Shown in pieces: positions 1,630 through 47,910 of a stretch of 64,000 bases of DNA. How positions within the stretch are numbered: the first letter of the stretch is position 1; each line of letters starts with the position of its first letter. This DNA is from Bifidobacterium sp. ESL0728. GTDB lineage: Bacteria > Actinomycetota > Actinomycetes > Actinomycetales > Bifidobacteriaceae. A program made the position numbers and the translations under genes. Location of the stretch: NCBI RefSeq assembly GCF_029392015.1, contig NZ_CP113925.1, positions 2,294,001 to 2,358,000 of the forward strand. Direction: 5' to 3'. Under the pieces are notes generated by a model. The model saw only the letters and a list, made by a program, of their open reading frames with translations, searched no databases and had not been told where the DNA came from.

Positions 1630-1732
1630 CAACAAGGCCAGCGATCTAACGGGCCTGTCGCAAGAAAACAGCCGCAAAGGCAAAAGCAACGGTTCCGTCA
1701 GTAAAACGCGGTATCGACGCTAATGAAGTTAT

Positions 1733-1791
1733 CGCAAAGCCCTTTGTGTCCATCTGTCTCTATCCGACAGGTAAATGCAGAGGGCTTTGCG
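1733..1791 (+). terminator. Terminator after the DUF805 gene
   Basis: CGCAAAGCCCT (1733-1743) pairs with AGGGCTTTGCG (1781-1791) around a 37-nt loop. There is no long T-run. The rest of 1630-2046 shows no credible gene. Confidence 0.6.
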
Positions 1792-1951
1792 GATTTGCAG
1801 TCAAGCCGTTTCGTGGTTATCCGGTAATGACAATAAATGCATACCGATATTCCTGCGCTCGAACCTTGCCGGCTAATCGACTCGGCCTATATGATCAATG
1901 ACACGAAATTCAAAAATCTGGAACTTTCCATACGTACATCGAATACACTAC

Positions 1952-1957
1952 TATAAT
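1952..1957 (+). promoter_or_regulatory. Possible -10 box for the 66-aa protein
   Basis: A perfect TATAAT lies 89 nt before the start of the small downstream gene. No good -35 is present at 17 bp. Confidence 0.4.
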
Positions 1958-2046
1958 GAGTCATTGAAGGCAGATATGTACGTCCAGCACTTGTTGGGAG
2001 CCAAATCGGCGCACCGCGACGTGCGTGGCCGACCAGAAGGGAAAGC

Positions 2047-2247
2047 ATGATGAACACAGCTGATTCAACGAATGGCACAAAGAATACAAACCTCAAAGAG
2101 CCACCGTTCGACGCGAATACACGACCCGGCGGTGGCCATGACGGCAAGACGAAGCTGCCAGGTTCTGGCGGCGAACCGGCACAGGGATATATGGGACCCA
2201 CCGATATGAATCCCGACAGTGCAAATTCGAGCAAGAACCAAAAGTAA
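2047..2247 (+). CDS. Small hydrophilic protein of unknown function
   Basis: A 66-residue reading frame starting ATGATG after GAAGGGAAAGC, a usable ribosome site. It is rich in Asn, Gly, Pro, Lys and Asp (PPFDANTRPGGGHDGK, LPGSGGEPAQGYMG), with no hydrophobic segment and no cysteines, so it is probably disordered. It is followed 14 nt later by a strong terminator and preceded by a TATAAT box, which supports a real transcription unit. No family is recognised. The second ATG at 2050 is an equally plausible start. Confidence 0.5.
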   Translation: MMNTADSTNGTKNTNLKEPPFDANTRPGGGHDGKTKLPGSGGEPAQGYMGPTDMNPDSANSSKNQK

Positions 2248-2260
2248 TAGCACTTATATA

Positions 2261-2299
2261 AAACGTGCGCCACCGGCAACATTGCGGCGGCGCACGTTT
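2261..2299 (+). terminator. Terminator after the 66-aa gene
   Basis: AAACGTGCGCC (2261-2271) pairs perfectly with GGCGCACGTTT (2289-2299). Confidence 0.7.
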
Positions 2300-2372
2300 C
2301 GTATCTACAGGTAATATAGGCGGCCAGCACCGGCCCTATCGCCCCTTAGATTCAGAGACATTCAACAGACGG

Positions 2373-2406
2373 CGGGCATATCCTTCACAATCCGAATATG
2401 CCCGCT
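2373..2406 (-). terminator. Hairpin downstream of the 325-aa gene
   Basis: GCGGGCATAT (2373-2382) and ATATGCCCGC (2397-2406) form a 10-bp stem with a 14-nt loop. A further half-copy (TATATGCCCGCTC) follows at 2411-2423. No T-run on the minus strand, so termination is only probable. Confidence 0.4.
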
Positions 2407-2444
2407 CTATATATGCCCGCTCTGGATATATCTGCCGTAAAACC

Positions 2445-3422
2445 TTACAGCTCCACCGGCGGCTTATCCTTGTCCTCGGGAATGTCCTTGAACTTCTCGG
2501 CCAGCTTGGCCTTCTTGATTTTCTCTTCCTTTTCCTTCTCGGCCTTAGCGACCGCGACCGGATCGTAAATGACGTCGTTGTGGTGCTTCTCCCACTCGGT
2601 CTTGGCCAGCGGCGCGACGAACCTGGCCACCGCGTCCAGAGCGCCATCACCATCGCCGGAACCGGCTGCTTCACGGTATTTGACAACCAGATCCTTGAAC
2701 TGCTGACTGGTCAGATACATACGTGGAATCGACATGCGCTCGCACAATTCGTTGATATAGAGCATGATCGGAGATGCGTTGCGAGCCGCAATATCGGTGT
2801 CGCCATCACTTGAAGCATCAGCGTTGTCGACTAAACCGAACAGCCCATCGATGGCGGCCAAAACCACCGCGAGACGCTGGGCCACGCTTTCAACGTCCGG
2901 ATCGTGCGGCGTGGAATCATCATCGGAGCCCTCGCCTTGCCCGTCTTCACCCGATACGGCGCTGGCACCAGCAACCTGCTCGATCTCCTCAAGTGCCGCG
3001 GCAATGGCCTTCACGGTTTTTTCGTCCCAACCGACGTCAAGATCGCCGGCACCCGCCATCACGAGCGAGGTATCGCCGTTACGCGAGTAATCTTCCATCT
3101 GCTCGTAGGCATCGTTGACGTCGATCAGCGCGTCGACCATCGACTGCGGGCGGCCAGGAATATCGACCGCACCTTCGTATACAAACTCGGCATCGGCCAT
3201 CGGAATTTCCTGCCCGGTAATGACCTCGGCCACCGCCCTGCACACCAGAACCTGCAGGTCCTCGGCATATTTCGCATCATTGCTCAGCTCCTGTGCGGTG
3301 TCCAACGGCCAAAGCGCGATAAGAGAAACACCAGCCTGCGCCGCATCCCGCACCTCGGGCATCAAAGCCAGACGAGCCAATTCACCGTCTTTGACGATCC
3401 CGCCTTCAATATCAACCGCCAT
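2445..3422 (-). CDS. Conserved-looking cytoplasmic protein of unknown function
   Basis: A 325-residue acidic protein with a clear ribosome site (AAGGAGCGAAT before ATG). There is no signal peptide or membrane segment. Residues 1-160 are globular-looking (MAVDIEGGIVKDGELARLAL, then helical stretches). Residues about 165-185 are a Gly/Asp/Ser-rich linker (SGEDGQGEGSDDDS). The C-terminal part ends in a charged Lys/Glu run (AKAEKEKEEKIKKAKLAEKF) that looks like a helix or coiled coil. I do not recognise a family. It stands alone, upstream of a hairpin at 2373-2406. Confidence 0.75.
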   Translation of the reverse strand: MAVDIEGGIVKDGELARLALMPEVRDAAQAGVSLIALWPLDTAQELSNDAKYAEDLQVLVCRAVAEVITGQEIPMADAEFVYEGAVDIPGRPQSMVDALIDVNDAYEQMEDYSRNGDTSLVMAGAGDLDVGWDEKTVKAIAAALEEIEQVAGASAVSGEDGQGEGSDDDSTPHDPDVESVAQRLAVVLAAIDGLFGLVDNADASSDGDTDIAARNASPIMLYINELCERMSIPRMYLTSQQFKDLVVKYREAAGSGDGDGALDAVARFVAPLAKTEWEKHHNDVIYDPVAVAKAEKEKEEKIKKAKLAEKFKDIPEDKDKPPVEL

Positions 3423-32075: not shown

Positions 32076-33431
32076 CTAATAGAGAATGTCCTGCGGATTT
32101 GCCTCGAGTGGGTGACGACGAAAATGGTTTGGGGCAACATCAAAACGGCGATGATGAGCCGGGACGAAGTTGCGGCGCGAAAGTTTGACGGCGATGAGGC
32201 CGACGACGAGGACGACTAGGGCGACGAGAATGGCGATGAGCATGGGATCTCCTTTTGCATTGTTTGGATTGGGAATCGGGTGGGGAATGGACTGGCGGGT
32301 GCCGGTGATGATGAGACGCTGGGTGTTGATGGCGTAGGGGGTGCAGGTCATGAGCGTCACCAGGTCGCGCCCGGGCACCACGCGGTAAAGGTGGGTGTCT
32401 TGTGGGTCGATGACATGAATTGCGCTGACGCGGTAACCCATCGTGCGGCCGAGCGTCTGCACGTAGAAGATGTCGCCGCGTTTGAGCTCATCGAGGCGCG
32501 TAAACAACAAGGCGCTACTTAGGCCGCGATGACCGCTTAAAACTGCGTTCGTGGATGGGCCGCCGACCGGCAGGCTCGTGCCGTAAAGGTGGCCGGCACC
32601 GTGAAGCAGCGCGTCGTCGGAAGTGCCGTGGTAAATCGGCATGTTGACCGAAATCTTGGGAATGCGGATGTTGCCCATCACGCCGTCACCAACGTTCAGA
32701 AGGTTTTGGTATTCGCGGTCATTCTCGCTTTGCGTTTGCGGCTTGGTAGGCAAAGAAGCAAATGAGCCTGATAATCCAGACCGATTGGACGAACCAGACT
32801 GACCGGACAAGCCGGATCGACCGAACGCATCGGACGAACCAGGCGAACCAAATCGATTGGACAAGCCAGATTGATCAGACGAACCAGACTGACCGGACAA
32901 GCCGGATCGACCGAACGCATCGGACGAACCAGGCGAACCAGACCGATTGGACGATCCAGACTGATCAGACGAACCAGATCGACCGGACAAGCCGGATCGA
33001 CCGAACGCATCGGACGAACCAGAATGATTGGACAAGCCGGATTGACCGGACAAACCAGACGAACCAGACTGACCGGACTTGTCGGATGAACCGCCGGGTC
33101 CACCAGCCGCAAACGGATCTACGAACTCCCCCAATGCCTTCTGGCCGGAAGCTGCTATACGTCGGTTATATGCCTGGGCACGATGGTATTCGTTGACAAC
33201 CTTGCCCTGCGGCCAACGCTCGACACGACTCACGGAATCATCAACAAGTTTGTTCTGCCGATACGTCTGAATCGTCCAGACCGTCGGGAACCACGCGATG
33301 GCAATAACCAACGAAACGGCACAGAAAACCAGCAACACGTCGACAATGCGTATGACAATTTTGCGAAAGCGATTCGGTGGGGGTATTTCGCCACGCACAA
33401 TCGCATCGAACTCGAACAATCGCAAAGTCAA
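32076..33431 (-). CDS. Class C sortase with a Ser/Gly repeat insertion
   Basis: 451 residues; TTG start at 33431 or 33425, close to a GGGGG. Class C marks: N-terminal membrane helix (residues about 24-50), catalytic His in VLSGHRGLSS, catalytic Cys in LVTLMTCTPYAINTQRL with the Arg after it, and a second C-terminal membrane helix. It polymerises pilin subunits by cutting LPXTG motifs. Between helix and catalytic domain, residues about 110-225 are SGxSG repeats, an addition not usual in the family (typical length 280-400). The two other genes of the pilus locus lie upstream on the same strand. Confidence 0.9.
   Translation of the reverse strand: MTLRLFEFDAIVRGEIPPPNRFRKIVIRIVDVLLVFCAVSLVIAIAWFPTVWTIQTYRQNKLVDDSVSRVERWPQGKVVNEYHRAQAYNRRIAASGQKALGEFVDPFAAGGPGGSSDKSGQSGSSGLSGQSGLSNHSGSSDAFGRSGLSGRSGSSDQSGSSNRSGSPGSSDAFGRSGLSGQSGSSDQSGLSNRFGSPGSSDAFGRSGLSGQSGSSNRSGLSGSFASLPTKPQTQSENDREYQNLLNVGDGVMGNIRIPKISVNMPIYHGTSDDALLHGAGHLYGTSLPVGGPSTNAVLSGHRGLSSALLFTRLDELKRGDIFYVQTLGRTMGYRVSAIHVIDPQDTHLYRVVPGRDLVTLMTCTPYAINTQRLIITGTRQSIPHPIPNPNNAKGDPMLIAILVALVVLVVGLIAVKLSRRNFVPAHHRRFDVAPNHFRRHPLEANPQDILY
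32801..33070 (-). repeat. 90-bp tandem repeat inside the sortase gene
   Basis: A near-identical block starting GACCGGACAAGCCGGATCGA recurs at 32801, 32891 and 32981, i.e. exactly every 90 bp (30 codons), embedded in shorter 15-bp SGxSx units. Being in-frame, copy changes would alter linker length without a frameshift. Confidence 0.8.
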
Positions 33432-33890: not shown

Positions 33891-34055
33891 CAATTATTCC
33901 CGATAATCAAAAATTTTGCACTCGAAACGCAGCACTCAACGCACATTGACGACATTTTCGCGTTCTGTGCTGTCGATAGAAAATCGGCAGCTTTAAGAGA
34001 CGTTGGAATTCCGCCAATCAAACGATGGCCGAATCGGCGAAAAAGACGAGTGCAC

Positions 34056-34096
34056 AGCACGGAAGCAGCATTTTGTCATTGATATCGTTCCGTGCT
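34056..34096 (-). terminator. Probable terminator of the pilin gene
   Basis: AGCACGGAA (34056-34064) pairs with TTCCGTGCT (34088-34096). On the minus strand a TCTTTTTC stretch follows after ~11 nt. Confidence 0.45.
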
Positions 34097-34171
34097 GCGC
34101 TCTTGCATTTATGCCAATATCGCAAGCCAGAAAATCATCGGAACACGATGATTTCGGCTCAATATCAGGTT

Positions 34172-36316
34172 TTACTCCTCGCGCAAGCGACGACGGACGA
34201 AGATCAGCATGGCTGTGGCCACCATCAGCAGCACGATGACGAGCAGCACGAGGATGATGCCCGCACCACCGGTCATCGGGAGCTGCGAGATTGAGGTGAT
34301 AGCCAAAACAACGATTGGAGTTTCGCTCGAAACCGCCTGGGTGTGTGCCGAGACCAACTGCCAAGCATCACTTTCGTTGGTATAGGCCGACTTCGCGGCA
34401 TCGGTGGCGTCAGCCTCAACGTGCACCTTGAAGCTGGGCATGAAGGTGTCGGAATAGCCCGCCGGACGGTTGATTTCCTTGACCGCGTAATCACCCTCGC
34501 CCAGGCCGTCGAAGGTGAGCATGCCGTCGGCCCCGACCTCGAGATCCGAAACGAAGGCGGCATTGGTGGCGCTCTGCGCGGCGACCAACTTGTAGTGGCC
34601 GTCGCCCAGTTTGATGAACTTAAGCGCACGGTCAGCCGAAGCATCGCGAGTTGAGACACCATCGGAGGCAGACACCTCGCCGGACTTCACCCCAGTGGAC
34701 CCAGCTTCGGCGGTCGCGCCAACGGCACCGGACTTGGCTTCGGAAGAAGCGGCGGAAGTACCGGCCGCAAACAGCTGATATTTCACGCCCTGCAAGCCGG
34801 CGACAGCGTCCCGCTCCTTCTCGCTTTTGGCAGCGTCCCATGCCAGCTTGGACTTGGTGATCACCGAGAACTTGCGGAAGCTCGCCACTGAAGCGGGGTT
34901 CTGCGGGCTGGTGGCGTTGGAGGCGAGAGAGCCGTTGCCTGCGCTGCCGGAGCCGCCGGAACCGCTGCCCGTGCCGTCGGAAATCACGTTGCCGGTGGCG
35001 GGGTCGATGGCGGCGACGGTCGGATCGGTCGGATTCGCAGCGCTCGGTTGTTTGTTGACATCGCTCGAATAGTTGAGCGTTGCGCCATTCTGAAGTTGGC
35101 CGCCGTCAGCGTCATCCGTGATCGACATCGTGTAGGTGATGACGATCGAGTCCCGGTAATGGAACTTCAGGATGCTCGGCGAAAGGTCGAAGACCACGTA
35201 ATCGGTGGAATCGTCACCGGCAATGTCCTGGAACCGACCAGCGGGGGCGGCATGGGAAGTCACCTTGTAGTCGCCGTTTGCAGCGCTGAGCTGGGTGGCG
35301 CCAATCGTCACCTTTTCGGAACCGGCCATATAATGCAGACCGAGCTGCGCGGGGCGATCGACCATAGTGTAGATGTAACGGCGGAAACCGGTGGTCAGCG
35401 GGACGCTACCGGTCAGTTTATAATGCAGTTTGCCGCCGATGGAGACGTTGTTGCTGTAGTTGTTGGACGAATCCAGTTCCTTGCTGACCGTCGGTGCGTC
35501 GTTCTTCATATCGACCAGGCCGAGCGTCTCGCCCGTAGAGCCGATCTTGTTGTAGACCACACCGGCCGAGGTGATGCCGGTGCTCACGAGCATCGGAATG
35601 GAGTTGCCGGCGGCCTTCGGGGCTTGTGCACCCGACTTTCCGGACGCACCCGCTTCACCGGTGACGTCATCGACCATGTAGATACCCGGCAGCAGGCCGG
35701 AAATGCTCAAGGTCGTCTTGTCGCCGGAGTCGGCGTCGGCGGAAACAGCGGACTTCACCTCGGCGGCGTTCACCAAGCTCGTGAATTTGTCGGTGTAGAA
35801 AACGTTGCTGACGAACTGACGCAGCTTGCCATCCCAAGCGTTCACGGCACTGCCGCTGTTGGAAGTGGCGTCCTCGTTGGGCGTATCGCCGTTCGCCTGC
35901 GCCGGGTAGCCGAGCCATTTGGCCGCGACTTCGCCGACGGGGTTGCCTTGATATTCCGAATCTTCGGCAGATCCGCCTTTGACCGTTCGCAGCGCGTTCG
36001 AGGTCTCGTTGAGCAGTTGCGGGTCGGTGCCGACGGATACGGCGTTCAGCAATCCGGTCGTGCCGTCCCCGTTCGCGGTGCCCTTGGCGTTCACATATGT
36101 ACCGATGCGTACGGCCTTGAACCGGTGGCCTTCGAGCATTGATTTGTCGCCTTGGATGGTGATGGTCTCGCCTGCGTACGAGCCCGAGACGGCGGTCGGA
36201 ACGGAGATGTCGCCGTCCCCTGTTGCGTTCGCGGCACCCATCGGGGCCACTGCCAGCAGCGTGGCGGCGGCGAGCGCAGCCCCGGCCAGCTTGCGTATGG
36301 TGGTTTTGAAACTCAT
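34172..36316 (-). CDS. Major pilin subunit, LPMTG-anchored
   Basis: 714 residues. Signal peptide (LAGAALAAATLLAVAPMGAA, cut near NAT). The C terminus is a sorting signal: LPMTGGAGIILVLLVIVLL and an Arg-rich tail. Residues about 475-660 carry a SpaA-type prealbumin-like domain ending FDGLGEGDYAVKEINRPAGY, with the conserved Glu of the E-box (KE) used for isopeptide bonds. The middle (residues about 280-430) resembles the D2-type isopeptide domain of fimbrial shafts. It would be polymerised by the class C sortase downstream. GGAAAG-type ribosome site upstream of ATG. Confidence 0.88.
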   Translation of the reverse strand: MSFKTTIRKLAGAALAAATLLAVAPMGAANATGDGDISVPTAVSGSYAGETITIQGDKSMLEGHRFKAVRIGTYVNAKGTANGDGTTGLLNAVSVGTDPQLLNETSNALRTVKGGSAEDSEYQGNPVGEVAAKWLGYPAQANGDTPNEDATSNSGSAVNAWDGKLRQFVSNVFYTDKFTSLVNAAEVKSAVSADADSGDKTTLSISGLLPGIYMVDDVTGEAGASGKSGAQAPKAAGNSIPMLVSTGITSAGVVYNKIGSTGETLGLVDMKNDAPTVSKELDSSNNYSNNVSIGGKLHYKLTGSVPLTTGFRRYIYTMVDRPAQLGLHYMAGSEKVTIGATQLSAANGDYKVTSHAAPAGRFQDIAGDDSTDYVVFDLSPSILKFHYRDSIVITYTMSITDDADGGQLQNGATLNYSSDVNKQPSAANPTDPTVAAIDPATGNVISDGTGSGSGGSGSAGNGSLASNATSPQNPASVASFRKFSVITKSKLAWDAAKSEKERDAVAGLQGVKYQLFAAGTSAASSEAKSGAVGATAEAGSTGVKSGEVSASDGVSTRDASADRALKFIKLGDGHYKLVAAQSATNAAFVSDLEVGADGMLTFDGLGEGDYAVKEINRPAGYSDTFMPSFKVHVEADATDAAKSAYTNESDAWQLVSAHTQAVSSETPIVVLAITSISQLPMTGGAGIILVLLVIVLLMVATAMLIFVRRRLREE

Positions 36317-36629
36317 ATACCCTGTCTTTCTTTCCTCACTTGGTACGGATATTGGTTATCGGCCCTTTTCGCCTTTGTTTTCAAAGGTTTCGTCAGGTCA
36401 AATCTTTAAATTTTGTATTACATTGGTTTGTGGATTGGCACATACGGTTTGCGCAAGAGCAAGCAAGCATTCCGACCCATCACGGCACTCAAACGGATGT
36501 TTCCGTGAAACAGAAGCCCGTTCATACGAAACCGACGACGAGACAGTGAACGCGTCGCTGGATCCGCATGAGTATTCCTGCCAAAAACACGGAATCCATC
36601 CACCCGGAACCGACAATGAAGCCGCGAAC
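36317..36629. other. Gap between tip adhesin and pilin genes
   Basis: 313 bp. No gene or strong hairpin seen. It must hold the leader of the pilin gene, whose own promoter is not obvious; co-transcription from the adhesin gene is possible. Confidence 0.5.
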
Positions 36630-39600
36630 TCACCGTCTGACATGCGCCCCGTGGCGCCCTCCAACGTGCGCCCCAACCCTTTTCCTGAATCGGGTCAGGT
36701 AGACATACCCCGCAGCACCGGCGAGCGCCGCCACGGCCGTGACAACCAGCAGCCACCACTGCCGCCAACCGGTGAACGGCAGCGCGGAAACGGGTTCCGG
36801 CCCATCCAGCGAAGCGGTAACGGCATCCGACTGGTTGCCCGGCTCGTTGCCGGAAATCTCGGCGAGCGTGTTGATGTTGTAGACGAAGTCCAGCGTTCCG
36901 GCGCGATCCATCGAAGCGACGGTCAAGCGACCTGGCGGCATGAATGTCGGAACGTCGATATGCCATTTCGCGTCCTTGTCGGTGGTGGTGCTGGTTTCGC
37001 TGCCGTCCGGCCATGTCACGGTGACATGGTTGCCTTCCATTCCCTTAAGCTGGCTGACCGGCGACGGATCAAGGCCGGAGTGGGCGGTGTCGGTCACAGT
37101 CCCGTCGATACCGCTCTTACGGCTGACCGACGTGACCTGGACGGCCGTCGGGTAGGTATCGATCAGCTGGTTGAAAACCCGGCCGAACGAAAGGACGTGG
37201 GTGTCCGAGTTATCGAGCACGGCGATGATGGTGTAAAGGATTTTCTTGTCGTATATGCCCTTTCGGAATGTCGAAACCGGGAAGCTGTACGACCAATCGC
37301 CAAGCAGGAAATCGCCTTCCTGATGCAGCGAGCTGCTTAGCGAGCTGAGCGGCTCAGGGCCCTGCAACCGGCATGCATCGTCCAAACCGTTGGGACTGTC
37401 TGGGCTATCGCAAGAGCCCTTGGGAGCTTCGCCTTCGCCGACCGGGCCGGACTGCGGCACCACGTAGAGCGACATGGTGTCGCTTTCGTGCAACGCCTCA
37501 ACGGAGCCCTTGATGCTCACCTTCGCATCCGCCGGCATCTCGCTTTTACCGGCCTTGTTGCGCACGGCGTGCGGCACCTTGAGCTGCTTGATTTCGGGGT
37601 TCTTGTTCGTTTCAAGCAGGAAATTGCCCTGAACGACGTTCGAGAAGAGCGAAGAGATATTGAAGTCGCTGCGCTCGGTTTGCCAGGCATGGTAGCGGAT
37701 GGAGTGCTGCACGTTGGTGTCGATCTTGCGATTGTCCTGAATGGACCACTCGCCCTTGGCGTTCACGGGCACGGAACCGATTCTGATGCCGCGGGTCGCA
37801 GGATCATTGGGCTTGTTGAGGTCGATGATGTGCGACTGGTCCTCGGCGAAAACCGTGACGGTATCGCCGGGGATGCCCGTGCCCGTAATGGTGCGCGAGC
37901 TGGTCGGCACATAGCCGTCGAACGGATTGATGGTCGGGCGAGCCGGACGCGGGATGCTGTAGTCGGCAAACGCGGTGTCGATGGTCCAGCCGGTGGACAT
38001 CAGCCTGTTGGTCTCTTCCTGCGACATGCCCTCCCTGACGGTCAGCGGATGGGCGGGATCGGCATTGTTGTAAAGCGGGTTGTAGGCGTCGTGGACGCTC
38101 AGCGTCTGCCCGCCGGTCGGCGTGTTCTGCACCACGCAGCCCGCGTAGGCCGCGGCGCTGTTCTGATTGCCGACCCCGGGATTGGTAGTGATCGGCCAGG
38201 TCACGAGCTTGAAGTAACCGTCAAGTTTGTCAGTCTTTTTGATGGCTCCAAAATCGATATCGCCTTTGGCGTCCTGCGCAATCTTGGGGTTTGTTCCCGC
38301 ACCCGGCACCATCAGATGGTTGGGGTTGGAGTTGTGCCAGGCGTTATTCGGGCTGTTCAGTGCCGCATAGCTGTCGTTGCCGCCGTAATCGGTATAGGCC
38401 TGCTGCCCGTCGACGCGCACCGCGGTAGGGGTCAGCGACTTCACCGGCACCCAATCCTTGCCGTCCCTGAGGCCGAACCATTGGTAATAGAACGACGTAT
38501 TACGAGAGCAAGGGTAAGCCGAGTTCCAGCGGGCGGCGATGTTGTACCAGAAGACGAAGAACGAGTTGGCCGGGGCCACGCCCGCGCCAGTGCCTTGGCT
38601 CGGGAAGCCGTAGTCGGTCACCAAGCCCCAGTTGGCCTGGCCGCCGCTCCAAAGGGTTGGGTGCGCGTCGAAGCCGATATGGGAGGTAGGACCGTTGCAC
38701 TGCTGCACCTTTTGCGCCGCCGTGCCCGTCCCCCAATTGCACTGGTTGGCGTACATATACGCGGGCACGCCTTCGCTGATATTGGTGACATATCGCGAAT
38801 CGAGAGACGAATAGTAATACGTTCTGTAGTTATTGACCGGCGTCTTGCCGCTCATCTGCCGGCCTGGCGCGGCCACCGCGTAGACGTACTGGTCGTATTC
38901 GGTGCCACCGACGTTGGTCGCGTCCAATGTCTTACCGGTATAGGAGAGGTCGCCCTCGATTGAAATGGTGAGGTAGTCGTAATCGCCGGAGACAAGGACG
39001 TTGTGGATGGTGTAGAACTCACCCTGGTTGCTCGCCCAGTTGACGGCGGCCTGCTGCGCATCCGCATCCGCCGTACGGTCGCTGTCGCCGGCGTAGGTGT
39101 TGAGATACGGGAAACTGGTCAGCTGCGTGTAGGGATTGGTTCCGGGCGCGCCGGATTGCGAGACCAGCATCTGCATGCCGCAGTCGACGTTCGGGTTCTC
39201 CCCACTGGCATATTTCGTCTTGCTCTGGCCGTTGCCGCCGTAATCGGAGGCGTTTTTGACCGCTACACAGTTGGGGTTCACCATTCCGTGCGGCATGCGC
39301 AGCACGAAGTCGATGCGCAGTTCGTCATCGACGCCGTCGCCCTGCATCTTGTTGTTGTTGGCGAGGAACTTGTAAAGCTTCGGCTTGCAGTCCACGCGCT
39401 TGTCCGCTGGAACCGCGCTGGTGGTGTCCTGAACGCACAGAGCCGGATAATCGTCGATGGTCACGTCTTCCCCGGCATCGGGAGCCTCGTTGTTGCCCGA
39501 GGCGAGATTCGCCGCTTCGTCCTGCGTTGCGGCGACGTTCTGGTTTGCCGTTGCGTCCTGCGCCGAAACGTTCTGAGTTACCGTTGCATCCTGCATTGCG

Positions 39601-39842
39601 ACGTTCTGAGTTGTCGTTGCGTCTTGCGTTGCGACGTTCTGCGCGAAAGCGTTGATATTTCCGGAAACGGCGGCGGCGATATTCGGGTTCAGGGCGCTGC
39701 TTCCCACCAAAAGGGACACCACGATGATTACTGCCGCAAACAGGCGGCCACAGCGTGGGATCGCCAGCCGCCTTCTGGATATTTTTGTATTTATAAAATC
39801 GTTCGACTTCGTCGTCATCACCTCCCCAACATCAGATGACAT
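36630..39842 (-). CDS. Large surface adhesin, probable pilus tip, LPFTG-anchored
   Basis: 1070 residues; ATG at 39815 (ninth codon after the first ATG at 39842) is an alternative start. Signal anchor RLFAAVIIVVSLLVGSSALN, then a short repeat zone of QNVAxQDATxT units (residues about 65-110). Long beta-rich central region. Near residues 660-750 an Ig-like adhesion module (RTITGTGIPGDTVTVFAEDQ, GEWSIQDNRKI), and a second near 940-1010 (VTVTWPDGSETSTT). C terminus LPFTGWRQWWLLVV with basic tail. As first gene of adhesin-pilin-sortase it is likely the tip or minor pilin that binds host or matrix. Confidence 0.82.
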   Translation of the reverse strand: MSSDVGEVMTTKSNDFINTKISRRRLAIPRCGRLFAAVIIVVSLLVGSSALNPNIAAAVSGNINAFAQNVATQDATTTQNVAMQDATVTQNVSAQDATANQNVAATQDEAANLASGNNEAPDAGEDVTIDDYPALCVQDTTSAVPADKRVDCKPKLYKFLANNNKMQGDGVDDELRIDFVLRMPHGMVNPNCVAVKNASDYGGNGQSKTKYASGENPNVDCGMQMLVSQSGAPGTNPYTQLTSFPYLNTYAGDSDRTADADAQQAAVNWASNQGEFYTIHNVLVSGDYDYLTISIEGDLSYTGKTLDATNVGGTEYDQYVYAVAAPGRQMSGKTPVNNYRTYYYSSLDSRYVTNISEGVPAYMYANQCNWGTGTAAQKVQQCNGPTSHIGFDAHPTLWSGGQANWGLVTDYGFPSQGTGAGVAPANSFFVFWYNIAARWNSAYPCSRNTSFYYQWFGLRDGKDWVPVKSLTPTAVRVDGQQAYTDYGGNDSYAALNSPNNAWHNSNPNHLMVPGAGTNPKIAQDAKGDIDFGAIKKTDKLDGYFKLVTWPITTNPGVGNQNSAAAYAGCVVQNTPTGGQTLSVHDAYNPLYNNADPAHPLTVREGMSQEETNRLMSTGWTIDTAFADYSIPRPARPTINPFDGYVPTSSRTITGTGIPGDTVTVFAEDQSHIIDLNKPNDPATRGIRIGSVPVNAKGEWSIQDNRKIDTNVQHSIRYHAWQTERSDFNISSLFSNVVQGNFLLETNKNPEIKQLKVPHAVRNKAGKSEMPADAKVSIKGSVEALHESDTMSLYVVPQSGPVGEGEAPKGSCDSPDSPNGLDDACRLQGPEPLSSLSSSLHQEGDFLLGDWSYSFPVSTFRKGIYDKKILYTIIAVLDNSDTHVLSFGRVFNQLIDTYPTAVQVTSVSRKSGIDGTVTDTAHSGLDPSPVSQLKGMEGNHVTVTWPDGSETSTTTDKDAKWHIDVPTFMPPGRLTVASMDRAGTLDFVYNINTLAEISGNEPGNQSDAVTASLDGPEPVSALPFTGWRQWWLLVVTAVAALAGAAGYVYLTRFRKRVGAHVGGRHGAHVRR

Positions 39843-40315
39843 CGAAATTTAAGTTTTCATATTTATTCGCTTATGCGTATAAATATCATTCTTTTCAAGT
39901 TCTATCCATCAAATTGTCGTTCCAGGCAATACGTGCGTTTACCAAATAAGTACCTCACGAAGGAAATTGACGCGTACTAGTGTGAGGGTTCCATAAGACA
40001 GGCAAGTTCAGGAAAAATTAGACATATTTATACATTGATATGATATTTGTCTCATTTATAAAAAGCAGTGAACAGCAATACAATTTATACAGAAATGTTT
40101 ATTTTGTAGGTGATTTTCGATATTCTACAATCAGTATTTATACTGAATAAAATATCAATGAAACAAAAAATGTTCTGTTCTGTGCCATTTAAAATGTGAT
40201 ATTGCCGATAAAAGCATCAAACGTTTTATAGCTCTCAGAGATAAACAAACAGATGTCCGTTTCCATCCCGATTGTCCAGCTAATGTTCAAATTCCGCTCA
40301 AAGCATCCAGAACGA
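39843..40315. other. AT-rich intergenic region upstream of the pilus locus
   Basis: About 470 bp much richer in A/T than the genes. It must contain the pilus promoter (minus strand) and possibly that of the AlbA_2 gene. I see no clear -35/-10 pair, and no gene. Confidence 0.5.
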
Positions 40316-40443
40316 TGTCCGGAAAATGTCCGGAATGTCCGCAAACTGTCCGGCTTTCACCCGAAATGTCCGGAAAATGTCCGGAATGTCCGCAAACTGT
40401 CCGGCTTTCACCCAAAATGTCCGGAAAATGTCCGGAATGTCCG
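40316..40443. repeat. Eleven phased TGTCCG repeats upstream of the AlbA_2/HTH gene
   Basis: TGTCCG starts at 40316, 40327, 40336, 40347, 40367, 40378, 40387, 40398, 40418, 40429 and 40438. Steps are 11, 9, 11 and 20 bp, repeated, summing to a 51-bp unit, so sites face the same side of the helix. Many extend to the palindromic TCCGGA. They end 45 bp before the gene start, a position suited to an operator or iteron array. Short frames across it (17-residue repeats) look incidental. Confidence 0.7.
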
Positions 40444-40488
40444 GAATAATATTGATACAACAATGTCATATTGAAGCGAAGGCACAAT

Positions 40489-42057
40489 ATGGAAACTAGA
40501 GAATTTGAAAACGTGCTGTCAATCGGAGAGACTTCGACGGTTGAATTCAAAAGATGTTCCACCAAACCCAAAAACGATACATACGAAACGGTATGTTCCT
40601 TCGCCAACCATATGGGTGGCTCCATCTACTTAGGCGTTGACGATGACGGCTCGGTACCGGGGATCACCTCGCCCGATGCGGCACTCGATATCGAACGAAA
40701 CATAGCCAACGCGACGCAGAACCCGCAACTGTTTTCGCCTGCGACCTTAGTGGAAACCGAGCGGTTCAATTATCACGGGAAAACCGTGATTCGCATCTGG
40801 GTTCCAGCGAGTTCTGCTGTTTGCCGCTATAAAGGACAGGTTTACGATCGCTTGGCGGATGCGGATGTCAGAATCAACGGGGATATGCAAATCGCACAGA
40901 TGTATTTGCGCAAACAAAATATCTATACCGAGCAGCGCATCTACAAAGGTGTCAGTATGGATGATCTTGATGCCGATTTGCTTGCCCGCGTCCGAACGAT
41001 GGCCGCGAACCGCAGACCAGGACACCCATGGCAGAAACTCGACAACAAGGAACTGTTACGAAGCGCCAGACTCTATATGAACGACCGTGGCACCGGAGAG
41101 AAAGGTATTACGCTCGCAGGAGTATTGCTGCTGGGTAAAGACGATGTTATAGCCGACGTGCTGCCCACATATAAAACCGATGCCGTGGTGAGGCGTGTAG
41201 ATAAACGACGATTCGACGACCGTCTGGTGTGCCGTACCAATCTGGTCGATGCCTATACCGAGCTATCGGAATTCCTGCGGCGCGCTCTCCCCGATAATTT
41301 CGCCCTCAACGGCGACTATGCGGTAAGTCCGCGAGACATCATCATCAGAGAGCTGGTGTCTAATTCTTTGATCCACCGTGAATATCTGAGCCCAATCACC
41401 GCGCAGATTACCGTGACCGAAAAAGGCATCGAAACCAGCAATGCCAGCCGCCCAGTATTCGAAGGCCCCATCAATCTGAAAAACTTCACACCGATTCCCA
41501 AGAACCCGATCATCGCCGATTTTTTCGCTCAAATCGGGCTGGCAGACGAACTGGGCAGCGGGGTCCACAATCTCGTGCACTATACGAAGATATATTCCGG
41601 CGGCACACCAAGCCTGCAAGACGGCCTGATTTTCAAGGCTTTCGTACCGCTCGTACGCAATAACGAGAGGCGAGGCAACGGGGAACCAGACGAATCCAGT
41701 GAATCTGAGACCCCATCAGCTAATGGAAACTTCAACCAACCGGCGCAGGCAAAGCAAAACAAGAAAAATCAGGAATTAAAAGCGACAAGAAAAATTGAAA
41801 CGAAAAGTCTGGCTTTCTCCAGCGTTGAGGATGCAGCACAATTCTTGTTGCAAAAGCAAGGTTGGGCAAATAGCACAGAGGTCGCGGAACTTGCCGGCGT
41901 AAACGCTCGTACAGCTCGGCGCTACTTTGCCAAGCAAATCGCCAACGGCACCCTTAAAGCCGAAGGCAAGAGCCGAGGCCGTCGATATGTGAAAACTGAC
42001 CCCACTGAATACGTGGGTAGCGTGCAGGACGTAAAAGACATGATTGATGCCTTGTAA
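40489..42057 (+). CDS. AlbA_2/HATPase_c_4 transcriptional regulator-like protein
   Basis: 522 residues from ATG 40489 (GAAGG upstream; an upstream TTG at 40471 is possible). N-terminal AlbA_2 (Schlafen-like) domain: ESTVEFK-type start TSTVEFKRCSTKPKNDTYET, GGSIYLGVDDDGSVPGI. Middle: IIRELVSNSLIHREY (HATPase_c_4 signature) and GLADELGSGVHNLVHY. C-terminal winged helix around STEVAELAGVNARTARRYFA (residues about 475-505). Family members are called RecG-like or transcriptional regulators, with unclear biology and frequent presence in variable regions. The phased repeats just upstream are a good candidate for its own operator. Confidence 0.85.
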   Translation: METREFENVLSIGETSTVEFKRCSTKPKNDTYETVCSFANHMGGSIYLGVDDDGSVPGITSPDAALDIERNIANATQNPQLFSPATLVETERFNYHGKTVIRIWVPASSAVCRYKGQVYDRLADADVRINGDMQIAQMYLRKQNIYTEQRIYKGVSMDDLDADLLARVRTMAANRRPGHPWQKLDNKELLRSARLYMNDRGTGEKGITLAGVLLLGKDDVIADVLPTYKTDAVVRRVDKRRFDDRLVCRTNLVDAYTELSEFLRRALPDNFALNGDYAVSPRDIIIRELVSNSLIHREYLSPITAQITVTEKGIETSNASRPVFEGPINLKNFTPIPKNPIIADFFAQIGLADELGSGVHNLVHYTKIYSGGTPSLQDGLIFKAFVPLVRNNERRGNGEPDESSESETPSANGNFNQPAQAKQNKKNQELKATRKIETKSLAFSSVEDAAQFLLQKQGWANSTEVAELAGVNARTARRYFAKQIANGTLKAEGKSRGRRYVKTDPTEYVGSVQDVKDMIDAL

Positions 42058-42071
42058 CTTCGAAGTCAGCT

Positions 42072-42116
42072 AAAAGTTGGTTAGCCTGGTGTCCTGCATC
42101 AGGCTAACCAACTTTT
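42072..42116. terminator. Bidirectional terminator
   Basis: AAAAGTTGGTTAGCCTG (42072-42088) pairs with its complement ending at 42116; T-run on both strands. It lies between the convergent AlbA_2 and glnK genes. Confidence 0.88.
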
Positions 42117-42130
42117 GTAATTAGATCGTG

Positions 42131-43764
<1,634 letters not shown>

Positions 43765-43974
43765 TTCGCGTTTCCCCTCTCCGGCCTGTCTCACGCGACG
43801 GGGTCCGCCGCGTCTTGAACCGTATGCGCCTATGAAACACGGAAAACGTAAGGAGAAGTTTTACGCGAGATTACGGCGATGTAAAACTCGCGTCCTTATC
43901 GAAACATGATGGTTACTTGCACCTAGAAATAGTTCAGTCGTTGCAACTGGCCCCTTCGCCATTTCTGCAGCATT

Positions 43975-44180
43975 TAAGCACAAAATCACAAAATACCGGC
44001 AGAACCGTGATTAACTCCGCAACCCCCAATGCCACATACAGAGATAATCACGAAACAACGTCCAAAAACGTGATTAACCTTGCAACCCCACACCACTTAC
44101 AGAGATAATCACGAAATTCCGGCAAAAACGTGATTAACTCTGCATCCCCAACTCTTTTACAGAGAAAATCACACAAAACC
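43975..44180. repeat. Tandem ~60-bp repeats with CGTGATTA/TAATCACG hairpins
   Basis: CGTGATTAA starts at 44006, 44069 and 44129, each followed ~40 nt later by ACAGAGATAATCACG (the last copy ACAGAGAAAATCAC); a partial copy precedes at ~43975. Each unit can fold back on itself. It fills much of the 43765-44296 gap between amt and ftsY. No gene here. Confidence 0.7.
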
Positions 44181-44296
44181 AGACCCACAAATCTGCTTAA
44201 CGACGCGTGAGACGACCGCGCGGATACGCAAGCAGCCGCACACCAACCCGTTTGGGATGATTTGCGGCCGCTGCACACTAACGATAAATCCGAGAC

Positions 44297-45547
44297 TCAG
44301 GCGAGGATGCCGTCGACGAAACCTTCCGGGTCGAAGGGGGCGAGGTCGTCGGGGCCTTCGCCGAGGCCGACCAGCTTCACGGGCACGCCCAGCTCCTGCT
44401 GCACAGAGATGACGATACCGCCCTTGGCCGAGCCGTCGAGCTTGGAGAGCACGACGCCGGTGATGCCGATGGCCTGCGCGAAGACCTTGGCCTGCGCCAT
44501 GCCGTTCTGGCCGGTGACCGCATCGAGCACGAGCAGCACCTCGTCAACTGGCAGGTTCTTCTCGGTGACACGGCGGATCTTGCCGAGCTCGTCCATCAGG
44601 TTCGCCTTGTTCTGCAGACGGCCGGCGGTGTCGATGATTAGCACGTCGACACCCTGTTCCTTGGCCTGCTTTGAAGCGTCGAACGCGACGGAAGCGGGGT
44701 CGCCGCCTTCCTTTTCGCTGCGCACGACGGGCACGCCGACCTTCTGCCCCCAGGTCTCGAGCTGGTCGGCGGCGGCCGCGCGGAAGGTGTCGGCAGCGGC
44801 GAGCATCACGCTCTTGCCCTCGGAGACAAAGAGGCGCGCGAGCTTGCCGGCGGTCGTGGTCTTGCCGGTGCCGTTGACACCGACCATGATGATGACGCTC
44901 GGCTTCTTGGCATCGGGCTTGTCCGCGTTGAGTGCACGGTCGGGCTGGGAATTGACCATGTCGATGAGCTTGGATCGCAATGCCTCGCGCACGGCCTTCG
45001 GGTCGGAGGTGCCGGTGATGCGGGCGTCGTTGCGCAGCTCGCCCACCAGCTTTTCGCTGGCCTCGCTGCCGACATCGGCCAGAAGCAAGGTGTCTTCGAC
45101 GTCGTCCCAATCGGAATCGGAAAGCTGGTCCTTGGCGAGAATGTTGAAGAGCGCCTTACCGAACGGATTCGACGACTTGCTGAGCTTCTCCTTGAGACGA
45201 ACGCTGCGGGAGGCCTTGGTTTCCGGAACTTCGACCTTCGACTCGGGTTCCGACTTCGGCTTGGACCCGGAGTCGGACTTGGACTCAGACTTCGATTTGG
45301 AGTCGGCCTCTGACTTAGACTTGGACTTCGCAGAAGTTTCTTCACCGGACGGACCTGGCTTGGCCTCGGCCTTCTTCTGCGTTTTGTCAGGTTCGGCATT
45401 TTTCGCATCTTCGGAAACGTTGGCATTCTGCGCGTTTGCGGCATTTTTCTTGTGCGAATGTGACACCAGAACGGCCACAGCAATGAGGATGACGGCGACA
45501 ACCACGAGCGCCACCACAATAAGCATCGGATTCATAGTAAGACTCAT
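44297..45547 (-). CDS. ftsY: Signal recognition particle receptor
   Basis: 416 residues. A membrane helix at the N terminus (PMLIVVALVVVAVILIAVAV), then a Lys/Ser/Glu/Asp-rich linker (residues about 35-130), then the NG GTPase domain: GVNGTGKTTTAGKLA (P-loop), DTFRAAAADQLETW, LIIDTAGRLQNKANLMDEL, LSKLDGSAKGG, GLGEGPDDLAPFD. It docks SRP-ribosome complexes at the membrane. TAATCT lies 6 nt before the ATG with no Shine-Dalgarno, pointing to a leaderless message. It is divergent from a TetR gene across a large inverted repeat. Confidence 0.95.
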   Translation of the reverse strand: MSLTMNPMLIVVALVVVAVILIAVAVLVSHSHKKNAANAQNANVSEDAKNAEPDKTQKKAEAKPGPSGEETSAKSKSKSEADSKSKSESKSDSGSKPKSEPESKVEVPETKASRSVRLKEKLSKSSNPFGKALFNILAKDQLSDSDWDDVEDTLLLADVGSEASEKLVGELRNDARITGTSDPKAVREALRSKLIDMVNSQPDRALNADKPDAKKPSVIIMVGVNGTGKTTTAGKLARLFVSEGKSVMLAAADTFRAAAADQLETWGQKVGVPVVRSEKEGGDPASVAFDASKQAKEQGVDVLIIDTAGRLQNKANLMDELGKIRRVTEKNLPVDEVLLVLDAVTGQNGMAQAKVFAQAIGITGVVLSKLDGSAKGGIVISVQQELGVPVKLVGLGEGPDDLAPFDPEGFVDGILA

Positions 45548-45593
45548 AGTTCAAGATTATTGGCGAGACCAGACGCAGGATGTTCGGCACACG

Positions 45594-45671
45594 CTCACAC
45601 TAAGTCATGGTTACCAAAAGAAACCATGGAAATTCGTACAGTATCTTTTGGTAACCATGGGTTAGTGTGAG
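45594..45671. repeat. 28-bp near-perfect inverted repeat between ftsY and tetR
   Basis: Left arm 45594-45621 (CTCACACTAAGTCATGG, then TTACCAAAAGA) matches the complement of the right arm 45644-45671 at 26 of 28 positions, with a 22-nt loop. Each arm contains the smaller palindrome GGTTACC / GGTAACC. It may be a regulator site, a hairpin or a small mobile relic. Confidence 0.8.
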
Positions 45672-45774
45672 TCACGACGCAGAAAGTCGCACACCCGAAC
45701 CGGGACGTTTAAAATCACTTCCGCGCAATTAAGCCAATCCCATTTTCAACACCCCACTTTGGGTGTGCGTCACT

Positions 45775-45780
45775 TACAAT
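45775..45780 (+). promoter_or_regulatory. -10 box placed for a leaderless TetR transcript
   Basis: TACAAT ends 6 nt before the ATG at 45787; no Shine-Dalgarno. Confidence 0.4.
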
Positions 45781-45786
45781 ATAACT

Positions 45787-46719
45787 ATGTCGAATGCTTC
45801 AAGAATGACTTCGTACCAGCGCCGCGAACAGCTCATCGCCATCGGGCGCGGGCTCTTCGCCGTCAAAGGTTACGAAGCGGTGAGCGTGGAGGAGATCGCC
45901 GCCGCCGCGAAGGTATCGAAGCCAATCGTCTACGAGCATTTCGGGGGTAAGGAAGGGCTTTACGCCGTCATCGTCGATCGAGAAATGCAGAAACTGACGA
46001 GCACGCTTATCGACGCACTTTCGGCCGGCGACACCCATCCGCGCCAGATTGTGGAACGCACCGCGCTGGCGCTACTGACGTATATCGAAGAGAACTCCGA
46101 GGGTTTCAACGTGCTCGTGCGCGACTCCCCCACCACCGACCCGGCCGGCTCATTCAGCTCGTTGCTCGGCGATGTGAGCCTGCGCGTGGAGGAAATCCTC
46201 ACCAAAGCCTTCAAACAGCACAAGCTGCCGGCGAAGGGTGTTCCATATTACGCGCAGATGCTCGTCGGCATGACCGTTTTCACCGGCCAGTACTGGGCCG
46301 CGCACCAGAAGAAAATCAGCAAGGAGCAGCTCGCCGCGCACATCGTCAATCTCGCCTGGTACGGCCTCTCGCGCCTCGAAGCCAAGCCGAAGCTGCGGTT
46401 TGAAAACGACCTGAGCACCGAGGATGACAGCAAAGCCGACGACGGGAAAGCCGACGGCAGGAAAACACAAGAGAATAGCAAGCGAACGGATACCCGAGAT
46501 GGCGATGCCATCAACAGGAAATCGGACGACGGAGACGTCGCTAACAGGAAATCGGACGATAGCGGCAACAGCAGCGAAGACACCGACCATACCGTTAACG
46601 CAGATACCGATACTCGAAACATCGACGCCAAAAGTAACCCGCGGATACCGGCAACGCCTTCAACACCGAGACAAAAGCCCCCAAAAGCCACAAAATCACC
46701 AGCAGTGAACAAATTATAA
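45787..46719 (+). CDS. TetR-family regulator with long hydrophilic tail
   Basis: 310 residues from ATG 45787. DNA-binding domain: YQRREQLIAIGRGLFAVKGY, VSVEEIAAAAKVSKPIVYEH, FGGKEGLYAVIVDREM, the standard TetR helix-turn-helix. The ligand domain runs to residue ~210. The last ~95 residues are a polar, likely disordered tail with repeated NRKSDDGDVANRKSDDS units, not usual for TetR proteins (about 200 residues). Divergent from ftsY; the inverted repeat between them may be its site. Confidence 0.88.
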   Translation: MSNASRMTSYQRREQLIAIGRGLFAVKGYEAVSVEEIAAAAKVSKPIVYEHFGGKEGLYAVIVDREMQKLTSTLIDALSAGDTHPRQIVERTALALLTYIEENSEGFNVLVRDSPTTDPAGSFSSLLGDVSLRVEEILTKAFKQHKLPAKGVPYYAQMLVGMTVFTGQYWAAHQKKISKEQLAAHIVNLAWYGLSRLEAKPKLRFENDLSTEDDSKADDGKADGRKTQENSKRTDTRDGDAINRKSDDGDVANRKSDDSGNSSEDTDHTVNADTDTRNIDAKSNPRIPATPSTPRQKPPKATKSPAVNKL

Positions 46720-46872
46720 TAAAAACAATCCAATAATGTTTTCGCGCATTTCCGCGCATTTTTATGACGGGAAAATCACAACTCGTGCGGACACCCCCGT
46801 CATTCTCGGGATTGCATGGTAAATTAGGCTTGTTCGGCGCACCAACGCGGCGAATTGCCATAATGAGGGAAC

Positions 46873-47910
46873 ATGCCGCAAACTAGCTTGAAAACGCTGA
46901 CTTTCGTGGTGCCGGCGTTCAATATGGACACCTACCTTGAACGTTGCGTTTCGTCGTTGACGGCCAATCGGGACAGCGATGACATCGAAGTGCTGATCGT
47001 CGACGACGGTTCCTCCGACGGCACCCCGGAACTTGCGGATCGTCTTGCGGCCGACAAACCCGGCATCATTCACGTCATTCACCAGAAAAACAAAGGTCAC
47101 GGTGGCGCGGTCAACACCGGCATCGCCAATGCGGAGGGCATGTATTTGAAGGTCGTCGACGCCGATGACTGGGTGGGCGCAGAATCGCTCAATGCACTGA
47201 TGAATGTAATGCGCCGACAGCGCAGCGCCAGCGAGCCGATCGACATGTTCGTAACCGATTACGTCTACGACAAGGTTGGTAAAAAACGCAAGCACGTCGT
47301 CAAATTCGACAACGTAATGGACACGGACAAACGTTTGGGTTGGAACGATCTGCGGCACTTCGGCATCGCACAATATATGATCATGCACGCGCTCATTTTC
47401 CGCACGGAAGTGCTGCGCGCGGCCCAGACCCAGCTGCCCGAGCACACCTTCTACGTCGATTTCATCTACGCCTACCAGCCGTTCCCGTGGGTCAAATCGC
47501 TGATGTATATCAGCACCCCGTTCTACCACTACTTCATCGGCCGCGACGGCCAGAGCGTGCAGACCGACGTGATGATCCGGCGCGTGGACCAGCTCGTGCG
47601 CGTCAACCGCACGATGGTCGCCGCCACCCCTGAACGCAAGAACGTCTCGCCCGGCCTCTACCGCTATATGATCCATTTCCTTTCCATCGAGAGCGTAGTG
47701 GCGAGCGTTTTCCTCATCCTTTCGCGCAAGTCTGCGAACTATCAGATCAAGCAGGAACTCTGGGAAAACCAGCGGGCCGTTTCGCCGAGGATCGCCCGCG
47801 ACGTGCGCCGTCAACTGCCTTCCCGTGCCATCAATCTGCCTGGTTCCGTCGGCCGCTGGATTATCCGCATGGGTTATTACGTAGCCGAAAATATTATCGG
47901 ATTCAATTAA
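46873..47910 (+). CDS. GT2 glycosyltransferase
   Basis: 345 residues, GAGGGAAC before ATG. GT-A fold: LTFVVPAFNMDTYLERCVSS, VLIVDDGSSDGTPELADRLA, NKGHGGAVNTGIANAEGMYL, and KVVDADDWVGAESL with the DxD metal motif. The remaining part (YDKVGKKRKHVVKFDNVMDT and on) is of the type in wall-glycan or teichoic acid GT2 enzymes. No membrane helix. It is a single gene, separate from the main polysaccharide region; its acceptor is unknown. Confidence 0.85.
   Translation: MPQTSLKTLTFVVPAFNMDTYLERCVSSLTANRDSDDIEVLIVDDGSSDGTPELADRLAADKPGIIHVIHQKNKGHGGAVNTGIANAEGMYLKVVDADDWVGAESLNALMNVMRRQRSASEPIDMFVTDYVYDKVGKKRKHVVKFDNVMDTDKRLGWNDLRHFGIAQYMIMHALIFRTEVLRAAQTQLPEHTFYVDFIYAYQPFPWVKSLMYISTPFYHYFIGRDGQSVQTDVMIRRVDQLVRVNRTMVAATPERKNVSPGLYRYMIHFLSIESVVASVFLILSRKSANYQIKQELWENQRAVSPRIARDVRRQLPSRAINLPGSVGRWIIRMGYYVAENIIGFN

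Follow-up and report, generated by a model that had tools for sequence, protein, structure and literature searches.

Eleven copies of the hexamer TGTCCG, phased to the DNA helix, lie upstream of a gene for a Schlafen-type (AlbA_2) protein that ends in a predicted winged helix, and this array is probably an autoregulatory operator read by the protein's own C-terminal winged helix, an arrangement that would likewise hold, with private motifs, in many of its relatives. On comparison of these genes, each protein would seem to recognize a DNA address of its own and to control itself through it. Two observations go beyond the initial annotation of this DNA: motif and winged helix vary in concert between genes, and an array can sit inside the gene itself. 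The window referred to below is the whole stretch of 64,000 nucleotides that was analyzed (Bifidobacterium sp. ESL0728, NZ_CP113925.1, positions 2,294,001 to 2,358,000).

A Helix-Phased TGTCCG Array Precedes a Schlafen-Type Gene

The initial annotation had described eleven helix-phased TGTCCG sites at 40316-40443 in front of an AlbA_2/HTH gene. All positions were recovered, on a single (forward) strand, with starts at 40316, 40327, 40336, 40347, 40367, 40378, 40387, 40398, 40418, 40429, and 40438. The steps between them (11, 9, 11, 20, 11, 9, 11, 20, 11, and 9 bp) confirm the further claim that steps of 11, 9, 11, and 20 bp recur as a 51-bp repeat, as does TRF, which returned a 51-bp unit (sites at 0, 11, 20, and 31) in 2.5 copies with 98% matches; a single base differs between the two full units. 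Phase coherence reached R 0.96 at 10.2 bp, with 0.86 at 10 bp, 0.73 at 10.5 bp and no coherence at 9.5, 11, or 12 bp, the independent evidence for phase being the offsets within one 51-bp unit, while the remaining sites represent duplication. The region 40001-40600 contained 12 copies of TGTCCG, whereas 2000 dinucleotide shuffles averaged 0.20 and never exceeded 2. Over the full window the hexamer was not in excess (33 copies vs a shuffle mean of 39.85), so it is the clustering, rather than TGTCCG as such, that is unusual. In the genome, which is one contig of 2,590,841 bases, the pattern TGTCCGGA-N0-4-TGTCCG occurred at a single place, the window array, and seven of the nine genome-wide copies of ATGTCCGGAA fell within it; a 26-base piece of the array had no exact match among viral contigs. 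An outlying TGTCCG at 40254-40259 (+), 62 bp or about six turns 5′ of the array, may be a weak site. An AT-rich stretch at 40019-40153 (+) carries four weak sigma-70-like promoter matches, a number not above chance (shuffle mean 3.3). Two other repeats were seen in the window: a 60-bp tandem repeat of 3.1 copies with ATCACG...CGTGAT inverted pairs at 43984-44172, between amtB-like and ftsY-like ORFs (by eye), and a long 18/45/90-bp tandem repeat (CCAGACTGA...), possibly coding, at 32776-33079.

The array ends 45 bp before the gene, which encodes a protein of 522 aa with an AlbA_2 (Schlafen), GHKL-like and winged-helix layout (40489-42057, +). Translation starts at TTG 40471 or, more likely, at ATG 40489, and a ribosome-site-like GCGAAGG was noted by eye at 40476-40482. 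The AlbA_2 domain (aa 14-128; 40528-40872, +) scored 65.2 bits against PF04326 (cut-off 25.3), and the AlbA_2 body matched the folds of Schlafen and SAMD9 nuclease domains with Z 9.1-11.5. Residues E14 and E19 are invariant across 29 aligned sequences, and their spacing of 5 is that of E205 and E210, which together with D248 are the RNase site acids given for rSLFN13 (PMC5862951); the third acid, D51/D52 by position, is absent from the 90% conservation list. A GHKL-like (histidine-kinase ATPase-like) region at aa 227-391 (41167-41661, +) matched the CA domain of VanSC (Z 8.3, 109 aligned) and histidine-kinase CA domains at Z about 8, and HATPase_c_4 gave 19.8 bits, below its cut-off of 26. AlphaFold2, run on 29 aligned sequences, gave a model (mean pLDDT 83.7) in which the body is ordered to about residue 390. 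It is followed by a linker at aa 391-440 (41659-41808, +) that is predicted to be disordered (pLDDT under 50) and whose DNA holds no array, unlike that of some relatives. The winged helix that had been assigned to the C-terminus is present in the model at aa 445-505 (41821-42003, +), with pLDDT mostly over 90 and wHTH fold matches up to Z 8.8 (AntR); all Pfam HTH hits were below cut-off. The AlbA_2 match, the folds and the E14/E19 spacing place the protein among the bacterial Schlafens that PMC12839542 reports in BREX loci. Large cell-surface or pilus-like proteins adjoin on the minus strand (36630-39842 and 34172-36316, by eye), and no BREX locus was found around the gene when its neighbors were inspected by eye.

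Phased Arrays of Other Motifs Precede Related Genes

Matches to the window protein at E 1e-40 or better were present in 26 of the 112 genomes of the genus, the window's own counted, and 84 of the 112 carried a PF04326 gene of any kind. The expectation that the same motif would stand upstream of orthologs held in part: several of them have phased arrays at the same upstream place, but these are mostly not built from TGTCCG. An CGGTCGAATCG array with 11-bp steps lies upstream of L016 and L018, and the array words are CGGTCGAAAG in L017, ATGTCCGATAGA in L024, and ATGTCCGGTAAA in L044. In L034 GGACATTCGA stands seven times with 10-bp steps and corresponds to ATGTCC read from the opposite strand, and L031 has a degenerate ATGTCSGATAAA array, while other orthologs, for example L026-L030, have no array upstream. 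TGTCCG itself recurs upstream of two orthologs, L024 and L044, and in degenerate form upstream of L031; it also precedes L269, a distant AlbA_2 gene. The array is thus not missing before all orthologs, and the resemblance to a multi-site operator proposed in the initial annotation is supported by this sequence comparison.

TGTCCG triple arrays, defined as three copies with 3-5 bases between them, were found at 17 distinct places in 15 of the 112 genomes. AlbA_2 genes follow three of the 17 (the window array, L052, which is the locus of L269, and L054), indicating that the build of the array and not the hexamer is the common feature; most of the remaining ones resemble coding or chance repeats by eye. 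At L051 and L064 (around base 1501) TGTCCG recurs at 10-bp and 11-bp steps before TetR-like and histidine-kinase-like ORFs (by eye), so that phased TGTCCG arrays are not confined to AlbA_2 genes.

The wider survey drew on at least 150 PF04326 places, leaving out three of the 150 together with L038-L040, three further places from the ortholog search that lacked a locus or matched only in part, and the duplicates L087, L096, and L097. From 157 PF04326 genes parsed, removal of L082, L100, and L121, in which the start was misplaced or broken, and of upstream regions that were shorter than 250 bases or rich in N gave 153, and removal of near-identical ones gave 137 upstream regions from 63 genomes, among which the remaining relatives are not independent. 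Controls were 107 intergenic upstream regions from twenty 20-kb stretches of the same genus. Under a strict rule (an exact 8-mer in at least three copies with steps of 9-24 bp), arrays were present in 35 of the 137 AlbA_2 upstream regions and in none of the 107 controls (p 2e-10). Their steps followed the helix, 78 of 88 being 9-12 or 20-22 bp and only one 13-17 bp, and in 32 of the 35 genes the last copy lay 7-101 bp 5′ of the start codon. When one mismatch and steps of 8-24 bp were allowed, at least four copies were found in 33/137 against 6/107 controls, and at least three in 88/137 against 27/107; four or more copies were seen in 7 of 471 dinucleotide shuffles and in 2 of 157 coding starts of the same genes. 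Distances under this lax rule peaked over controls at 10-12 and 20-22 bp and more weakly at 31-33 and 40-42 bp. The motifs vary between AlbA_2 subfamilies, the words noted by eye in others being GATAAGATA, AGCAGAAAAGT, TTCTTACATGTAAGAA, CTGAATTCAG, TATTTGACGG, GGTAAGTTAAGT, and ACTTAGGAACCTAGGA.

Arrays Also Lie Inside the Genes

For arrays inside the coding region, genes under about 383 aa were removed from the 137, leaving 134. The strict rule found in-gene arrays in 17 of these against 3 of 179 control ORFs, and all 17 fell between aa 370 and 460, within the linker that leads to the winged helix, a stretch predicted to be disordered in the model of the window protein. No gene had both a strict upstream and a strict in-gene array (0/134, p 0.004), the 35 and the 17 being disjoint. 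The lax rule gave no enrichment (25/134 genes vs 29/179 control ORFs), and the in-gene claim therefore rests on the strict rule, the position and the reading frame; 20 of the 25 lax arrays lay at aa 370-455, and L095 and L111 had both kinds. By the strict rule an array of either kind was found in just 52 of the 134 genes. Cluster 4, with 12 genes, had one upstream array and no in-gene array, and the six of its tails that were inspected resemble winged helices.

Five of the 17 strict in-gene arrays (L080, L085, L089, L091, and L101) have 11-bp steps, which carry one DNA word through changing frames and so point to selection on the DNA; a peptide function does not explain a word that is kept across frames. 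In L080 five copies of AGTGCCGGATC at 11-bp steps run through three reading frames (SAGSVPDQCRISAGSVPD); the structure model of this cluster 5 protein was poor (mean pLDDT 46) and was excluded from the evidence. The steps in L091 are 11, 11, and 20 bp in a 42-bp unit, resembling the 11, 9, 11, and 20 of the window array. Laxer rules added 11-bp in-gene steps in L036, L111, L221, and the prophage gene L271. Arrays with 12-bp and 21-bp in-frame steps can be explained either as DNA or as peptide. Three further features of such linkers were seen: in L271, a Mycoplasma prophage gene, the array and winged helix are tandemly duplicated within one ORF (1501-3237); L111 and L119 both end inside the in-gene array, without a winged helix; and L267 has five copies of a 13-bp linker repeat at aa 401-419 that is out of frame yet not helical.

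A same-strand ORF of at least 100 aa lay within 80 bp upstream in 13 of 20 genes with in-gene arrays against 10 of the 35 compared with them (p 0.012), a comparison that uses the lax lists and in which some upstream ORFs may be chance. Six upstream ORFs were searched: those of L124, L086, and L091 matched pglX, that of L088 matched a CBASS cyclase, and those of L083 and L080 had no match. All four downstream ORFs searched (L086, L083, L101, and L091) matched pglZ in PADLOC, the match of L083 being weak there and absent in NCBIfam. Of the six cluster 5 relatives whose neighbors were searched, four (L083, L086, L091, and L101) adjoin pglX and/or pglZ.

Beyond the genus, PF04326 was present in 58 of 198 genomes of a phylum sample, the window's own included. 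Part of the genes at the 48 loci read there had arrays, such as L228 (ATCGCGCC, mostly 9 and 11 bp), L250, and L221, and many loci had none. The linker of L013, an Enterocloster relative matching at 43%, carries CACCCAATCC three times with 12-bp steps. Seven of eight named loci outside the genus were read, L276 being left out for having no annotation, and the lax in-gene copies numbered seven in L271, five in L272, four in L270 and L273, three in L275 and L277, and two in L274. Among five relatives on viral contigs, three (L278, L279, and L281) have strict in-gene arrays with 12- and 21-bp in-frame steps, and none of the five has an upstream array.

The Motif Changes Together With the Winged Helix

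Members of the window protein's cluster are 44-67% identical to it in the body (38-39% in the two most distant members, which this range leaves out) and 17-38% identical in the winged helix. The winged helix of L016-L018 had appeared to be unrelated, the local match ending near residue 391, and this was rejected on full alignment, which gave 31-38% identity. Motif similarity was measured without register over 93 genes with arrays, lax ones included. With the body held constant, motif and winged helix were associated at 0.136 over all pairs (0/1000 permutations as high), at 0.069 for pairs from different clusters (2/1000), and at 0.206 within the same cluster (0/1000); within clusters the motif tracked the body too (0.258, 0/1000 permutations). 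An earlier, blunter comparison in fixed register gave a partial value of 0.10 (1/500 permutations). Where the winged helices of two genes from different clusters were similar, motif words were shared (cosine above 0.2) in 7 of 18 pairs (39%), whereas about 1% of the other cross-cluster pairs shared them; the 18 pairs are drawn from few genes and are not independent.

From its sequence, L124 is the clearest apparent case of a domain swap, with a body of the window cluster and a winged helix and array word of cluster 5: the body is 77% identical to L032, the winged helix is 46-56% identical to the eight cluster 5 proteins that top its list, and the array word is GTGCGGGATACT, as in L083, L088, and L102. 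The association has exceptions. L269 has a TGTCCG array, yet its winged helix is not closely similar to the one in the window protein, and L037 and L281 have ACYACCCAAG in common with winged helices that differ by eye, which suggests that some 12-bp in-frame repeats may be protein features.

Alternative Explanations

The array might instead be the operator of another cellular DNA-binding protein, with the Schlafen-type gene merely its target. Such a reading would accommodate the TGTCCG triple arrays of the genus that stand elsewhere than before an AlbA_2 gene (14 of the 17 distinct places), the two of them that precede TetR-like and histidine-kinase-like ORFs, and the fact that the sequence of the window array is not conserved in most orthologs. 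We consider it unlikely, given that the motif varies by gene and tracks the winged helix of the same gene even across a domain swap, that a shared regulator would have few other targets when the array is unique by pattern in its genome, and that the five AlbA_2 genes of this genome all have different upstream sequences. The initial annotation had also likened the array to an iteron, and phased direct repeats are indeed found in iterons, while the winged helix matches the centromere-binding protein AspA (Z 7.9, 62 aligned). A replication origin or centromere-like partition site is nevertheless hardly credible here: the genome is a single 2.59-Mb contig, the adjoining gene is AlbA_2, no replication initiator, replication or ParA gene was recognized by eye among the ORFs at 34000-47000, and similar arrays lie within the coding region of relatives.

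In type III toxin-antitoxin pairs a repeat RNA restrains an RNase. We give very little credence to such a role for the window repeats as RNA, whether as a restraint of this type or as mRNA structure. They do lie directly 5′ of a predicted RNase gene and fold with a z-score of -1.92 (10 of 200 shuffles fold equally well or better), but no Rfam family was found at gathering score in 39000-45700, the steps track the DNA helix, ATGTCC stands in reverse orientation in L034, arrays also occur inside the ORF, and the motif tracks the winged helix. It is also very doubtful that the arrays are functionless slipped-strand duplications in a spacer or an unconstrained linker, or that the in-gene repeats are selected as peptide. 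Although the 51-bp unit is plainly duplicated, the linker is predicted to be disordered, the repeats with 12-bp and 21-bp steps, being in frame, may have been kept as peptide (peptides of TTQ type are found beside dissimilar winged helices), and the lax in-gene counts are not above controls, several results speak against such accounts: the absence of strict arrays from control upstream regions, the near lack of upstream steps of 13-17 bp (1 of 88), the frame shifts of the 11-bp in-gene arrays, and the mutual exclusion of upstream and in-gene arrays under the strict rule.

Proposed Mechanism and Its Meaning

If the window array is an operator for its own gene product, one copy of the protein would dock on each TGTCCG through the C-terminal winged helix, and the bound copies would be aligned along one face of the DNA and held by cooperativity. 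Whether upstream or within the gene, an array is placed where RNA polymerase has to initiate or read through, and the gene product carries a DNA reader. We therefore favor cooperative binding in a row on one face of the DNA, of the sort known for BldC (PMC5859096) and Apl (PMC7498355). The array-bound protein would control its own gene, probably by repression or as a transcription roadblock, though the sign could instead be activation of the window's promoter. The predicted RNase would be kept low until released by a signal, sensed by the GHKL-like domain and perhaps being ATP or a phage product. Related genes would follow the same scheme with their own motif, and in other relatives, several of them beside pglX or pglZ of BREX operons, the array would act from the linker coding DNA before the winged helix.

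A more tentative proposal, which is possible but which we would not favor over its contrary, is that operator and winged-helix reader form an exchangeable cassette whose two parts evolve and move together, that the array parks the RNase on its own gene until infection, and that the copies are mutually insulated. The array would then stand at the promoter or within the linker-coding DNA of its gene, where translation could run across it in whichever frame, and would serve as a self-tether or roadblock, and a private word would insulate each of the five AlbA_2 genes here.

The Schlafen nucleases of humans are antiviral, and these arrays may bear on how defence RNases are silenced. If the operator reading is true, the DNA targets of many uncharacterized wHTH proteins could be read from their own genes, and nature would supply recognition domains already paired with their operators in large number. 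An operator that crosses reading frames before its reader domain would place an unusual double selection on one stretch of DNA, and would provide a specific candidate for the type of cis element that the BrxR gene is suspected of containing (PMC9122589).

Relation to Known Systems

Among the papers listed in our searches of open-licence PubMed Central, none described these arrays in its title or the start of its abstract. One of the closest known systems is a BREX-linked protein in which a Schlafen RNase of bacteria is joined to a minimal histidine kinase and a wHTH (PMC12839542, which also refers to a preprint about bacterial Schlafens in phage defence). Its domain order is the one predicted for the window protein, and the main text of that paper, in the form available, contains neither 'tandem repeat' nor 'autoregul' nor 'operator'. 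For the whole body the best fold match (Z 20.7, 334 residues) is with DIP2311 of Corynebacterium diphtheriae (PDB 3lmm), in which an rmsd of 14.9 indicates a domain placement different from that in the window protein.

Transcription regulators of defence systems are known in CapW for CBASS (PMC9122588) and BrxR for BREX (PMC9122589). These are separate regulators with a WYL domain, whereas in the window protein regulation would fall to the tail of the effector itself. CapW binds a palindrome and BrxR a site upstream of its start, and the available text of these two papers describes no phased array inside either gene, although the BrxR coding sequence is suspected of a cis regulatory function (PMC9122589).

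Direct repeats about one helical turn apart, the trait of operators of the BldC and recombination directionality factor type, are present in the window array. BldC of Streptomyces binds cooperatively head-to-tail to direct repeats of varying length, and it is a MerR-like protein of 68 residues with a regulon (PMC5859096), whereas the window array looks private to one gene; given a MerR score of 13.8 bits against a cut-off of 28.2, the window protein may work in a BldC-like manner, yet it is not classed as BldC. Apl of phage 186 and other recombination directionality factors likewise occupy direct repeats one turn apart, spread cooperatively and repress. Apl is an excisionase and a regulator of the lysis-lysogeny decision (PMC7498355), whereas here the DNA reader would be the tail of a predicted RNase.
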